Origin: Halobacteriovorax sp. HLS | GTDB taxonomy: Bacteria; Bdellovibrionota; Bacteriovoracia; Bacteriovoracales; Bacteriovoracaceae | Assembly: GCF_004006665.1 (NCBI RefSeq) | Contig: NZ_QOCL01000002.1 | Span: 248,001-312,000, forward strand | Direction: 5' to 3' | Length of the DNA stretch: 64,000 nt | Shown here: positions 5,153-61,972 of the stretch, in pieces | How positions within the stretch are numbered: the stretch's first letter is position 1 | Layout of the letters: every line of letters starts with the position of its first letter | Notes under the pieces: model-generated | Told to the model about the DNA's origin: nothing | Seen by the model: only the letters and a program-made list of their open reading frames with translations | Databases searched by the model: none | Translations under genes and position numbers: made by a program

Positions 5153-6532
5153 ATGGCCAAAAAGAATTCAACTATTTATACGTGCTCTGGATGTGGTTAT
5201 CAGACGGCTAAATGGATGGGGAAGTGTCCAGATTGCCAAGAGTGGAATAGTTTTGAAGAGGAAACTTACGCTTCAAAGGCCGAAATGAAGGCGATGACTA
5301 CAGTTTCAATGAAAGATGGTGCAACACCAAAGAAGATATCAGAAATAGAAACTGAGACATATTCTAGAAATAAAACTGGAATTGGTGAGTTCGATAGAGT
5401 CTTAGGTGGAGGACTAGTACCGGGAAGTTTAATTCTTATCGGAGGAGAGCCAGGAATTGGTAAATCAACATTGCTAACTGAACTTCTTGCAAAACTCTCA
5501 AATATAAATCCTAAAGATGGAATTTTGTATGTCTCTGGCGAAGAGTCTGTTTCACAAGTTGCCGAAAGGTCTAAGAGGTTGGGCCTAAAGGATGCTAATT
5601 ACTACATTTATAATGAAACTAACTGGCAACGTGTACATCAACAAATTAAGAAAATTAAACCAACATTTATGGTTTTAGATTCGATCCAAACAACTACTTC
5701 CTCTGATATTCCTTCGGCTCCAGGAACAGTGTCTCAAATTAGAGAAGTTACTTATCAGCTTATGAATCATGTTAAAGCAAATGGAATTACTTGTTTCATT
5801 GTTGGTCATATTACAAAAGAGGGCTCAATTGCCGGACCTAAAATCCTTGAACACATGGTTGATACTGTCGTCTATTTCGAAGGAGATCAGTTTGGTCACT
5901 ATCGTATGCTAAGAGCGATTAAAAATAGATTTGGTAATACAAATGAAGTTGGAATATTTGAGATGAAAGAGAATGGGTTGAAAGAAGTAGCTAACCCAGC
6001 TCAGTATTTTCTAGATGAAAACCTCGATAAGACAGCAGGACGTAGTCTGAGCTGTATTAATGAGGGTTCAAGACCATTATTTGTTGAAGTTCAAGCACTA
6101 GTAGTTGAGAATAATTTTGGTAACGGCAGAAGAACTACTCAAGGAATTGATAATAATAGATTAGCAATGCTAGTTGCTGTAATCGAAAAATATATGAATT
6201 TACCAATGAGCGCTAATGACATATACGTAAATGTTGTTGGAGGAATGAAGTTGAAAACAAGAGATACTGATCTAAGTGTTATTGCTTCACTATTGAGCTC
6301 TTTCAAAAACTCGTCCTTAGATAATCAAACAATTTTTTTGGGAGAAGTAGGACTTACAGGTGAAGTTAGAAGTGTAAGCCACTTTGAAAAAAGACTTAAA
6401 GAGATGGAGCAACTAAACTATAAAAAATTAGTAACTTCTCAAAAACTGGCTAAAGAATATAAGTCAAAGTCTAAAGTAAAAATTATTGGCATTAAAAAAG
6501 TTACTGAACTCTATGATCTATTTAAAGAATAG
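5153..6532 (+). CDS. radA: DNA repair protein RadA
   Basis: A branch-migrating, RecA-like ATPase of recombination repair. It has an N-terminal C4 zinc finger (Cys11, Cys14, Cys25, Cys28), Walker A GEPGIGKST (98-106), the RadA-specific KNRFG motif (257-261) and a C-terminal Lon-protease-like domain. I chose the ATG at 5153 because AAGGA lies seven bases before it. A TTG at 5138 would place that Shine-Dalgarno inside the gene. It is monocistronic and converges with glpK; a long palindrome covers its stop codon. Confidence 0.95.
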   Translation: MAKKNSTIYTCSGCGYQTAKWMGKCPDCQEWNSFEEETYASKAEMKAMTTVSMKDGATPKKISEIETETYSRNKTGIGEFDRVLGGGLVPGSLILIGGEPGIGKSTLLTELLAKLSNINPKDGILYVSGEESVSQVAERSKRLGLKDANYYIYNETNWQRVHQQIKKIKPTFMVLDSIQTTTSSDIPSAPGTVSQIREVTYQLMNHVKANGITCFIVGHITKEGSIAGPKILEHMVDTVVYFEGDQFGHYRMLRAIKNRFGNTNEVGIFEMKENGLKEVANPAQYFLDENLDKTAGRSLSCINEGSRPLFVEVQALVVENNFGNGRRTTQGIDNNRLAMLVAVIEKYMNLPMSANDIYVNVVGGMKLKTRDTDLSVIASLLSSFKNSSLDNQTIFLGEVGLTGEVRSVSHFEKRLKEMEQLNYKKLVTSQKLAKEYKSKSKVKIIGIKKVTELYDLFKE

Positions 6533-6541
6533 ATCATAGAG
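6509..6541. terminator. 14-bp perfect palindrome between convergent radA and glpK
   Basis: Arms CTCTATGATCTATT (6509-6522) and AATAGATCATAGAG (6528-6541) with the loop TAAAG form a perfect 14-bp stem. It covers the radA stop codon and is followed by an AT-rich stretch rather than a clean T-run. A terminator or 3'-end stabilising hairpin is likely; efficiency is uncertain. Confidence 0.55.
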
Positions 6542-6549
6542 ATATTTAT

Positions 6550-8031
6550 TTAATAAATAGTTTTAATTATTTTAGACCACTTCTCTTTTTTCATTTTGTA
6601 GTGCTCTATCTCATCAGCTTTAGGTTGAAAAAACTTGTCTTCCTTCCACATATCGAGAACTTTAGATTTATCAATAATTTTTGAACCAATAGCAGCTGCT
6701 AAGGCGGCGCCATATGCTGTCGTTTCGATTATTCTTGGCCTTATTATTTTTAAGTCAGAAACTGTTGCCTGAATTGTCATCAGTAAATCATTTGCAACAG
6801 CTCCACCATCAACTCTGAGCTCATCAATCTTATGGCCAGTGTCTGCTGACATGGCAGTTATTAAGTCATTTATTGATAGACACATTCCATCTAGGCAGGC
6901 CCTCGCGATATGCTTATCACTTGTATCTCTTGTTAGGCCAACTATTGCTGCCTTGGCCTCAGAATTCCATTGTGGGGACCCTATACCTGTAAAAAATGGA
7001 AGAAACATAACGTGTTCCATTTGACTTAGGTCTTTTACTTGAGCAGCTAGGCCTTCAATGTCCGAGCTATTTTTAAATAAGTGTAAGTTATCCCTTAGCC
7101 ATTGAACAGCAGCTCCACAAATATAAGTACTTCCCTCAAGTGCATAATAGGCCTTTCCATTTTCTTTGTAAGCTACAGTTGTTAACAAACCATTATTTGA
7201 ATATTTAATTTCATTGCCTGTATTGAGCAACATGAATGCTCCAGTACCATAAGTACATTTCATGTCACCCTTTGTAAGTCCGGCTTGTCCAAATAAAGCA
7301 CTTTGTTGGTCCCCTAAGATTCCAGAGATTTGTATCCCGTCGTCAAGAAAGTCTAAACCCTGTGTGTGTCCAAAATTACTAAAAGAATCACATATGCTTG
7401 GTAAAGTAGTTTTTGGAACCTCAAATAGCTCTAATAGTTCATTATCCCATTGACAGGTTTTTAGATCCATCAGTAGTGTTCTTGAAGCATTTGAAGCTTC
7501 AGTTTTATGAGATGTGTTACCAGTTAACTTATAAAGAATGAAAGTATCTATCGTTCCAAATAATAAATCATCATTCTTTGATGCCATCTTAACAGCGTCG
7601 TTATGATTTAAAAGCCATCTCATTTTTGTTCCAGAAAAATATGAATCAATTTTTAATCCAGTTTTTTCCTTTATATAGTTTTCTTTAGAAGAGAGTGATT
7701 CACAAAATGACGAAGTTCTTCTATCTTGCCATACAATAGCTTTTGCCAGAGGCTGTCCTGCCTTGTTGAAGGCACAAGTTGTCTCTCTTTGATTTGTTAT
7801 ACCAATACACTTTATATCTTTTGAAGAAATTGAGTTCTTTGTTAAGACATCTGTTATTGTTCTTTTTATTGTGTTCCAAATGTCATTAAGATCGTGTTCA
7901 ACCCAACCTGGTTTTGGAAAATGTTGTGTAAATTCACAGTTAACCTTGTCAATAAATTCTAATGAATCAGCATTAATCAATACTGCTGTTGTACCAGTAG
8001 TACCCTGGTCAATTGAGAGTATATAACTCAT
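6550..8031 (-). CDS. glpK: Glycerol kinase
   Basis: Phosphorylates glycerol to glycerol-3-phosphate in the cytoplasm. The 493 residues match the FGGY kinase family from end to end. The N-terminal phosphate-binding DQGTTGTTA is present. So are GWVEHD, the WQDRRT segment, GDQQSALFGQ in the second domain and the C-terminal DGGAVAND ATP-binding motif. A good ribosome site (AAGGAAG) precedes the ATG. No glpF or glpD is adjacent, so it stands alone. It may feed glycerol released from phospholipids into central metabolism (inference). Confidence 0.96.
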   Translation of the reverse strand: MSYILSIDQGTTGTTAVLINADSLEFIDKVNCEFTQHFPKPGWVEHDLNDIWNTIKRTITDVLTKNSISSKDIKCIGITNQRETTCAFNKAGQPLAKAIVWQDRRTSSFCESLSSKENYIKEKTGLKIDSYFSGTKMRWLLNHNDAVKMASKNDDLLFGTIDTFILYKLTGNTSHKTEASNASRTLLMDLKTCQWDNELLELFEVPKTTLPSICDSFSNFGHTQGLDFLDDGIQISGILGDQQSALFGQAGLTKGDMKCTYGTGAFMLLNTGNEIKYSNNGLLTTVAYKENGKAYYALEGSTYICGAAVQWLRDNLHLFKNSSDIEGLAAQVKDLSQMEHVMFLPFFTGIGSPQWNSEAKAAIVGLTRDTSDKHIARACLDGMCLSINDLITAMSADTGHKIDELRVDGGAVANDLLMTIQATVSDLKIIRPRIIETTAYGAALAAAIGSKIIDKSKVLDMWKEDKFFQPKADEIEHYKMKKEKWSKIIKTIY

Positions 8032-35206: not shown

Positions 35207-36379
35207 TCAATAAGACTTTAGAAGTTGATAGGTATTAAAGAATATTTTTTTAAAATCTTCGTTACGTAACCGATCAACTTTCTTCGTCTCTCGAAAAAAA
35301 TCTTTTAAATTTGCACTAACATTATCCATCTGAAGATGCGTATTAATGCTAAGAACTTTCCTAAGTAAAGGTCTTATTTTCTCACTCGATTTGAAGTCAA
35401 GCACAAGAGAATATAACTCTGCTTGCAGAATTGCCTTCAGCTTCTTAGGCAATATTTGAATATTGTAGTAGGTTGGGTTTGTTACTAAGTAAAATTCAAT
35501 TCCATGAATTATACTAAGAGGACTTTTCTCTATATAAGTCAAAATCTCTCTTATATCGAAAATATTTAAAATGCTAATAGTCACCTGGTATGCACAAGGA
35601 ATGCTAGAGGATGAGACTAATTCGATATTATCTTCATAGTCTTTAAAGATAACTCCTGCTCTAATATATTCTCCCTTTTTACCTACTCCATCTAAAGAAA
35701 TATTGAGACTTAAGTTCGGAAGCGACTTCGATATACTTATAAGTCTGACTATTGAAGATGTAGGGATGCTCAAACTTGTACTGATCGTTACATTGCACTC
35801 ATTATTAGTACCAATTAAATTTTCTAGTAACGTAAAAATCTGCTCTTGTATGAGAGGTTCCCCTCCAGAAATTACTAAGGAGTTTAGAGTTTTAGAAACC
35901 TCCAATAATTCATTAAATTGTTTTTCAGATACTTCTGAATAAGTATGGATTTCTCTTCGAAGTTTATCACTATCTTTATTCCACATAGAACTTAAGAAGC
36001 TGGAGCAAGTACGACAGCTCTGATTGCATAAGTTTGAAAGAGAGATTTCAAGATGTTTAATATCAGACAGTTTTCGATCTTCATCAGTAAAGGAAATCAA
36101 AGGATAATTACTATTATAATCTAATCTCTTACTATTGATTCCACTTACTTCTTGAGAAGAACAGAGGTTACATATCTCTATAGACTCATTATTTAAAAAT
36201 GCTTGTCTATAATTTTTAAGGGCAGTGCTATTAATAGTTTCAAGAATTGACTGCTCATTCCAGTTACCAATCTTTACAGAATTCATTGTATTGCTACAAA
36301 GTGAAAAACTTCTATCCACATTAATGGATAATGATATCCATGGAGCACTACAGTGATAAGATATTTTATTCGTTGTCAT
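35207..36379 (-). CDS. Twitch-domain radical SAM protein
   Basis: The 390 residues have an N-terminal SPASM/twitch-like cysteine set first: CSAPW with Cys10, Cys28, then EICNLC with Cys70 and Cys73. The radical SAM core follows, with the SAM-binding cluster motif CNQSCRTC (Cys118, Cys122, Cys125) and an ISGGEP-like VISGGEPL segment. The order (accessory cysteines before the core) fits the twitch-domain radical SAM family. Such enzymes modify peptides or carbohydrates, but the substrate is unknown. No precursor peptide or transporter is adjacent. Confidence 0.85.
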   Translation of the reverse strand: MTTNKISYHCSAPWISLSINVDRSFSLCSNTMNSVKIGNWNEQSILETINSTALKNYRQAFLNNESIEICNLCSSQEVSGINSKRLDYNSNYPLISFTDEDRKLSDIKHLEISLSNLCNQSCRTCSSFLSSMWNKDSDKLRREIHTYSEVSEKQFNELLEVSKTLNSLVISGGEPLIQEQIFTLLENLIGTNNECNVTISTSLSIPTSSIVRLISISKSLPNLSLNISLDGVGKKGEYIRAGVIFKDYEDNIELVSSSSIPCAYQVTISILNIFDIREILTYIEKSPLSIIHGIEFYLVTNPTYYNIQILPKKLKAILQAELYSLVLDFKSSEKIRPLLRKVLSINTHLQMDNVSANLKDFFRETKKVDRLRNEDFKKIFFNTYQLLKSY

Positions 36380-59622: not shown

Positions 59623-61044
59623 TTATTTTGGTCCGTAATGCTGGCGCTTTTCTTTGAGAGTCGCGATCAACTCACTAACAATTAGTGAATTCTCTTTATC
59701 CAGGTTATTAATAGTATCTTGAACATCACTTTTATAAGACTTTATAATTTTAATAACACCATTAATAAGATCATTACCAAAGTCTGTAACTTTGTCGTTT
59801 TCGTATGCATGTTTTAAATCTGTAAAACAGTATTCGAGCATTAGGTACTCTTCGACAAAACGGCGAGATATCTTATTTTTTTGTTCGTTACTGAAATTAT
59901 ATAATTGTGTTTCTTGTTTGTTTAGATTCGCGAAAAGTTCAAGCGCCCAGTAGAACGTAAATGTTGCGTGGTAAATCCCTCTAATAGGTCTTAGAGCTTT
60001 TCTCCAAGGCGAGTAGTAGATCTTGTCATCATCTTCATTGATAACTTCTTCGAAGTTTAAGAATGTATTTAAATAGTGATGTCCATTCTCATGAAGAAGA
60101 TCATCAAGTAAGTCAATAAAGTCTCTTTCAAAGATATTAATACATGAGTAACCTGGAAGTTGTTGTTGAGAATAGCTTACAATGCCAGGCTCATCTATTG
60201 GAATTATTGTATGAGTAAAGTTGGCAAATGTATTATAGAGGTTTGGGGCAACGTCATTGATGACATCTAGTGCTAGGTTGATATTAGCTTTGATCTCATT
60301 AATAGTATTAAACCCTTTTTCACAATTCGGTAATACATGTAGTTCTTTATCAGTGCGCTTGATTGGAGGTAGTCCTTCAGTAATAATATATCTAATATCA
60401 TCTTCTAAAAAAATAAGATTCTCATGTTTGTTAACACCAACGACAGGTAGAGTTGGAAAAGTACTACAGGCAGGCTCTAGCCTAACTAATGAGTTGCTTT
60501 TTCCGAGATAGAGGCATTGTTCATTATCGCCTTTTTCAGGAGTGGCTTTGTAGATATAACTTTCTTCTCCCAATAGAGGGTTCTTAGATATATTTAAATA
60601 GAAAAAAGAGATAATTTGATTTTCAATTAGAGGTTGTAAAATTTTAGAGCTTTCCACTAATGACTTACCATCTGAGTTTAGCTCTAAGAAGCTTTCTGCA
60701 AAGTCACTGTCATTCCAGAAGTTAAATATCTCGTCTTCAATTTCATTAAACTCAACCTGATCCCCTGAATTGGTCTCTGATAGTTCATCATGTAACTGAA
60801 TAAGATAAATTGAATTTTCCATTAAGTTTGACCAATAAAAATTTAGATCAGTATATTCATTTAAGGCCTTGTCGTTAATGATCTCCTTTAGGCGATCTAA
60901 AAAACCTTCACTAAAAGATTCACTCGTATAGCCAGAGTTTAAATCTTCTCGAATATCTTGCAAAAGTTCCGCGTAGCTTTGCTTAACATTATCTTTAATC
61001 GTCGATTGAAATGAGTTTGAAAATATATTTTCTGGTGTAATCAT
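59623..61044 (-). CDS. HExxH-motif protein, putative alpha-ketoglutarate-dependent peptide beta-hydroxylase
   Basis: 473 residues. The conserved core is DDLLHENGHHYLN (His318, Glu319, His322), then YYSPWRKALRPIRGIYHATF (around 344-362). HExxH followed by S-P-W-R...RP-x-x-G-x-x-H is the pattern of the HExxH motif family (TIGR04267). Some members are Fe/alpha-ketoglutarate peptide beta-hydroxylases in RiPP pathways. The first 260 residues are helical and not typical. No precursor peptide, transporter or radical SAM gene is adjacent. GGAG precedes the ATG. Confidence 0.72.
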   Translation of the reverse strand: MITPENIFSNSFQSTIKDNVKQSYAELLQDIREDLNSGYTSESFSEGFLDRLKEIINDKALNEYTDLNFYWSNLMENSIYLIQLHDELSETNSGDQVEFNEIEDEIFNFWNDSDFAESFLELNSDGKSLVESSKILQPLIENQIISFFYLNISKNPLLGEESYIYKATPEKGDNEQCLYLGKSNSLVRLEPACSTFPTLPVVGVNKHENLIFLEDDIRYIITEGLPPIKRTDKELHVLPNCEKGFNTINEIKANINLALDVINDVAPNLYNTFANFTHTIIPIDEPGIVSYSQQQLPGYSCINIFERDFIDLLDDLLHENGHHYLNTFLNFEEVINEDDDKIYYSPWRKALRPIRGIYHATFTFYWALELFANLNKQETQLYNFSNEQKNKISRRFVEEYLMLEYCFTDLKHAYENDKVTDFGNDLINGVIKIIKSYKSDVQDTINNLDKENSLIVSELIATLKEKRQHYGPK

Positions 61045-61185: not shown

Positions 61186-61260
61186 TGGCTGGGATGGAGG
61201 GATTTGAACCCACGACCAATAGATTAACAGTCTACTGCGCTACCACTGCGCCACATCCCA
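61186..61260 (-). tRNA. tRNA-Asn (anticodon GTT)
   Basis: 75-nt cloverleaf on the minus strand. Acceptor TGGGATG pairs with CATCCCA, the anticodon loop is CTGTTAA with GTT, the T arm is complete and CCA is encoded (61186-61188). Seven T follow the CCA on the minus strand. Confidence 0.95.
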
Positions 61261-61456: not shown

Positions 61457-61972
61457 ATGCAAGCAAAGAGTTTTCTATTAAGTACCATTCTACGTGTGCT
61501 AACTCCTGAGGAAATCAGTGACTTAACAACGACTTCAACTGGTGACAGAAGAGTATCTCTTACTGATATTATTAATCAAAGACTAGATGGTGTAGGTCAC
61601 GACTTTGGAGATCCTGAGAAGATGGCCAAAATTCTTCCGTTTAAAAAGACTGAAGAAGATGAGGAAGTTTTAGAAGAAGTCATCCCAACATTTTGTGGTC
61701 TAAGATCGCAAGAGTTTATAGAGCGATTTTTCATTCGTAAAAAGCTTACTGATACCGCTGTTGATAGTGAAGGAAATCAAATTGAAACATCCTCTTTTAT
61801 TTTCAATGAGAAGGATCGTTTTGCTTACTCACAATCTAAGCTAAAACAAAGAGAAGTTTTGGGTCTATATAGGCAAAATGCCGCGGTCGATGTAGATCAG
61901 GTAAGGGCCTTAAAAGATGATTTATCTCAATCGGCCCATACCGGAGTTCTAGTAAATAAGAAGCAGTATTAA
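61457..61972 (+). CDS. Protein of unknown function
   Basis: 171 residues, cytoplasmic in appearance, ATG preceded by AAGGA. It contains LLSTILRVLTPEEISDLTTTSTGDRRVSL with many Thr/Ser, a charged acidic stretch (KKTEEDEEVLEEV) and a basic C-terminus (HTGVLVNKKQY). No domain recognised. It converges with astD, overlapping 4 bp. Confidence 0.6.
   Translation: MQAKSFLLSTILRVLTPEEISDLTTTSTGDRRVSLTDIINQRLDGVGHDFGDPEKMAKILPFKKTEEDEEVLEEVIPTFCGLRSQEFIERFFIRKKLTDTAVDSEGNQIETSSFIFNEKDRFAYSQSKLKQREVLGLYRQNAAVDVDQVRALKDDLSQSAHTGVLVNKKQY

Follow-up and report, generated by a model that had tools for sequence, protein, structure and literature searches.

The enzymes of the aKG-HExxH family that have been characterised, as far as they were found here, all come from RiPP clusters and act on leader-bearing RiPP precursors. 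Thus, PflC and PosC β-hydroxylate Gln (PMC12636437), PesO β-hydroxylates Pro (PMC13060819) and BipH carries out a hydroxylation in biphenomycin assembly (PMC12707348), while hydroxylation of Asp, His and Phe is also reported for the family in work cited in PMC12636437 and PMC13060819. PflC/PosC, PesO and BipH, placed in the aKG-HExxH family by their authors, have a precursor gene and further tailoring genes in their clusters. In the 64,000-nucleotide stretch of the Halobacteriovorax sp. HLS genome analysed here (the window), an initial annotation placed an open reading frame in the same family and described it as an orphan, with no such genes around it. This raises the question of whether the gene really belongs to the family and, if so, what its product acts on.

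The proposal that the reading frame encodes a peptide β-hydroxylase is borne out by both profile and fold. The NCBIfam model TIGR04267 (aKG-HExxH-type peptide β-hydroxylase), for which a failed match had been named as grounds for abandoning the assignment, recognises the 473-aa protein with 67.4 bits and an E value of 1.5e-18, the curated cut-off being 40 bits. A profile search of the whole 3.84 Mb genome returned this ORF as the sole TIGR04267 match, at 70 bits. The ORF is a member of the aKG-HExxH family (TIGR04267 / IPR026337). A Pfam scan of the protein gave no family above the cut-offs, and an OGFOD2-like match below threshold (E 0.025) is attributed to chance, since the fold of the hydroxylase is different. 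Among solved structures searched with phmmer, ChlH (PDB 8s5f; 6e-10) and SjiH (PDB 22nu/22ob; 5e-6) are the only relatives that score well by sequence.

Table 1. Positions, in window coordinates, of the hydroxylase gene, its parts and the other features discussed in the text.
Feature	Position	Strand	Details
aKG-HExxH-type peptide/protein β-hydroxylase ORF	59623-61044	minus	ATG start, 473 aa
N-terminal region, residues about 1-250	60295-61044	minus	helical bundle then β-rich segment (secondary structure of the model)
HENGHH, metal-binding HExxH motif, residues 318-323	60076-60093	minus	invariant in 36 orthologues
SPWR...R..RG..H signature after the HExxH helix, residues 345-359	59968-60012	minus	orthologue alignment
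tRNA-Asn(GTT)	61186-61260	minus	ARAGORN; immediately upstream of the hydroxylase gene
Conserved 171-aa protein	61457-61972		in most loci transcribed away from the tRNA-Asn/hydroxylase unit
Twitch-domain radical SAM gene	35207-36379		NF033640, 270.7 bits

The AlphaFold model of the hydroxylase, computed from an alignment of 36 orthologues, has a mean pLDDT of 93.8 and a pTM of 0.91. Comparison with the PDB using VIA-align gives Z 23.3 over 296 residues for the HExxH domain of ChlH (model residues 1-438) and Z 22.6 over 359 residues for SjiH (model residues 1-461), the likeness covering nearly the entire chain, including the N-terminal region, which is variable in sequence and has a fold common to both relatives. 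The next-best PDB chains are unrelated helical proteins (Z ≤8.7), and a viral structure library, searched at E 0.001, gave no match to the model. The HExxH domain of ChlH (ChlBH), an Asp/His β-hydroxylase from Chlorogloeopsis, has the HExxH motif and a SPWR...LRP..G..HA block as in the hydroxylase; however, ChlH is described in PMC12636437 as belonging to a radical-SAM fusion with a RiPP precursor as substrate, whereas the protein studied here lacks both a radical SAM domain and a nearby precursor. SjiH, which its depositors named a radical SAM core protein, has in common with the hydroxylase the whole-chain fold, the HExxH motif and PWRK.LRP, but the two proteins are only 13% identical and SjiH has Gln at the position of H359.

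Both motifs on which the annotation relied, HENGH and SPWR...RP..G...H, are present, the former at residues 318-322 (window 60093-60079) and the latter within the signature listed in Table 1. The HENGHH stretch aligns with the HExxH of ChlH, and PWR...LRP is common to the hydroxylase, ChlH and SjiH. S345, P346, W347, R348, R352, R355, G356 and H359 are invariant in 36/36 aligned orthologues and P353 nearly so, the remainder of the HExxH plus SPWR...RP..G..H block being invariant. Altogether, 31 positions do not vary across the 36 orthologues, every one of them in the catalytic half, and they cluster in VSxSxQxLPGxSxIN...RD...DD..HENGHH, in SPWR...R..RG..H and in R..EE. Comparisons inside the genus give dN values of 0.15-0.30, against a dS that exceeds 2 or has reached saturation; the hydroxylase is therefore under purifying selection. 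The active site is intact and invariant, and the gene is vertically inherited.

The family surveyed, one of predatory bacteria, comprises Bacteriovorax/Halobacteriovorax and relatives (129 genomes). Orthologues, nearly always in single copy, were found in 89 of them; adding G062, where the N-terminal 28 codons of the gene lie at a contig end, brings the number to about 90. G062 had been considered a loss within the genus, a reading rejected on account of this fragment. The loci in named genomes belong to Halobacteriovorax, Bacteriovorax and other Bacteriovoracaceae, plus one Nitrospira. About 39 of the 129 genomes lack the gene, which is thus not essential across the family, although some of these absences could be assembly gaps like that of G062. 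In L201 and L202, two of the genomes lacking it, ygfZ runs directly into the tRNA-Asn, followed by the next gene; these are clean losses of the hydroxylase gene alone.

Of the 41 loci compared with wide flanks, 38 have the gene downstream of a tRNA-Asn and on the same strand, while in one subclade (L078, L089 and L098) it is found alone at a different site. The typical order begins with astA/astD-like genes of arginine catabolism, the divergent 171-aa protein, the tRNA-Asn and the hydroxylase gene, and continues with ygfZ-TPR, an IscA-like gene, an FHA protein, a cobalamin adenosyltransferase and icmF. The gap between tRNA-Asn and hydroxylase gene is 142 nt in the window and 7-127 nt in most relatives, so that in some loci a separate promoter would hardly fit; this spacing makes it likely that both are carried on one transcript. 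The tRNA-Asn of the window has a single close match in its own genome. The 171-aa protein gives no Pfam or NCBIfam match, and it was rejected as an obligate partner or substrate because genomes without the hydroxylase keep an apparent counterpart at that position.

None of these surroundings has the look of a RiPP locus. No precursor peptide, leader-binding protein or exporter lies near the hydroxylase gene, whose neighbours are housekeeping genes. When short ORFs of 20-90 aa within 4 kb were clustered across the 41 loci, no conserved small ORF appeared; the clusters obtained were translations of the tRNA gene and pairs among close relatives only. Since housekeeping synteny is conserved family-wide, no such small ORF lies within 4 kb and the two losses examined affect this gene alone, the hydroxylase gene does not belong to any local RiPP cluster. 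The initial description of the gene as an orphan thus holds within 4 kb in its 41 relatives, and the setting outside known RiPP clusters, put forward as new, is indeed unusual: that of a stand-alone member conserved throughout a lineage. The distant radical SAM gene mentioned with it is also real; it carries a twitch domain and ends 23 kb from the hydroxylase ORF. No peptide substrate evidently adjoins it.

The explanation that we favour, and which seems reasonably likely, is that the protein is a stand-alone Fe(II)/α-ketoglutarate β-hydroxylase whose target would be a side chain in some endogenous protein or peptide with its gene at another locus. An intact active site and the lack of a local peptide are most economically explained by a single-gene hydroxylase with an endogenous, unlinked protein as substrate. 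From the characterised relatives we infer iron/α-ketoglutarate chemistry, and from the distribution of the gene an unlinked substrate of housekeeping type. Taking into account that the gene is old, single-copy and stand-alone behind tRNA-Asn family-wide, its product probably has a protein of the cell itself as substrate. In the mechanism proposed, the iron would be held by the two His of HExxH, the oxidant would be produced from α-ketoglutarate and O2, and the whole-chain fold shared with ChlH and SjiH would position the substrate by a stretch of extended peptide; expression would probably be coupled to that of the upstream tRNA-Asn. If this explanation is true, a stand-alone, vertically inherited member present throughout a lineage would extend the use of the fold to general protein hydroxylation. 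A single gene with clean natural losses would offer, in addition, a simple genetic system for finding the substrate.

Among the alternatives, the one that survives best, although we regard it as rather unlikely, is that the protein tailors a RiPP precursor encoded at some other place in the genome, perhaps together with the twitch radical SAM protein encoded in the window. It agrees with the activities established for PflC/PosC, PesO and BipH (PMC12636437, PMC13060819, PMC12707348), and another contig of the same genome has an MNIO gene with an adjoining small precursor-like ORF. This MNIO gene (L205:1202-2765) is preceded by a 93-aa, secreted-looking, Cys-containing ORF and followed by a 159-aa ORF, a locus resembling a small MNIO-type RiPP cluster. 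However, the hydroxylase gene is stand-alone and syntenic across the whole family with no conserved small ORF close by, and its in-place, single-copy inheritance differs from that of RiPP clusters, which are typically patchy.

A ribosomal or an envelope protein is a possible target of the hydroxylase. In Escherichia coli, RoxA/YcfD hydroxylates the β carbon of uL16 Arg81 (PMC4295552), and it might be supposed that the present enzyme does this job, or a similar ribosomal modification, with a different fold. Only the proposed task, β-hydroxylation of an endogenous protein, would be alike: RoxA/YcfD (PDB 4ccl) has a JmjC cupin fold and a sequence unrelated to the hydroxylase, in which the Pfam scan found no match to PF08007, the JmjC_2 cupin domain of RoxA/YcfD. 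The question of whether the two genes exclude each other was posed before scanning. RoxA was searched for with PF08007 and then with an alignment of 17 RoxA-like proteins, one of which matches both E. coli YcfD (7e-38) and the R. marinus enzyme (4e-56). RoxA was found in 21 of the 129 family genomes, and the genomes searched elsewhere in the phylum yielded none; therefore, RoxA cannot be regarded simply as the enzyme of the common ancestor, which weighs against the two being equivalent.

Within the family, RoxA is rarer where the hydroxylase is present (5 of about 90 genomes, against 16 of the 39 without it; G062 has a RoxA gene), with Fisher p values of 2e-6 uncorrected, 0.01 for high-quality genomes and 0.02 by genus. 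On a tree of 60 genomes built from 21 proteins of the ribosomal operon, dependent evolution of both genes was favoured over independent evolution with a likelihood ratio of 10.7 (p about 0.03 by chi-square), a value reached in 0 of 200 simulations (bootstrap p 0.005-0.01). A near mutual exclusion of moderate strength is thus observed after tree correction, lending only moderate support to a ribosomal target. It has to be noted, however, that p rises to 0.07 when one large clade is left out, and that a control trait, an unrelated JmjC class, gives p 0.02 with a positive association, opposite in sense to that of RoxA; clade-level habits can therefore yield such signals. Moreover, five genomes have both genes and many have neither. 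The Arg81 loop of uL16, EVRMGKGKG, is nearly invariant in all genome classes, which fits this proposal, but for the same reason the uL16 sequence was discarded as a discriminator; among ribosomal proteins of the operon region, no column passed the filter for separating genomes with the hydroxylase from those without it. Although both enzymes would share β-carbon hydroxylation as their chemistry, equivalence with RoxA is improbable and should be taken as a testable lead and not as a finding. The fuller proposal, in which an aKG-HExxH enzyme would serve predators as a ribosomal-protein oxygenase interchangeable with RoxA, its expression tied to a single tRNA-Asn, is slightly less probable still.

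It is very unlikely that the protein is a zincin-type metalloprotease, in spite of its HExxH motif, of a zincin-like core in common with these proteases (M1 aminopeptidases, Z 6.0-6.5) and of the hydrolytic cleavage of a truncated substrate by its relative PflC (PMC12636437). The Z scores of the hydroxylases are three to four times higher and their matches extend along the whole chain, and the SPWR...R..RG..H block, specific to the family, is invariant. An ordinary zinc-protease fold, which had been named as an outcome that would overturn the annotation, is therefore not what is seen, no zincin exceeding Z 6.5 against about 23 for ChlH and SjiH. That the gene might be a functionless relic of an element integrated at tRNA-Asn can be practically dismissed: its position directly 3' of a tRNA gene is a usual kind of integration target, and three genomes without the hydroxylase (L198, L203 and L204) have other genes in that spot, but no integration scar was found in the window, which has no second copy of the tRNA-Asn 3' end with three mismatches allowed, and the gene is under strong purifying selection with an invariant active site.

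Two further observations concern HExxH proteins in other genomes. The Nitrospira homologue (L175:8053-9726) is a 557-aa protein encoded divergently from a gene at 5958-7406 that was labelled NFACT/RqcH-like by eye from its sequence. In two genomes of one genus, a second, short HExxH protein of 261 aa (L178:7628-8413 and L179:7473-8258) adjoins an epimerase-like gene and a secreted-looking protein composed of repeats such as SESRVEILSGDQRNIN, and these repeats could be a multi-site substrate.
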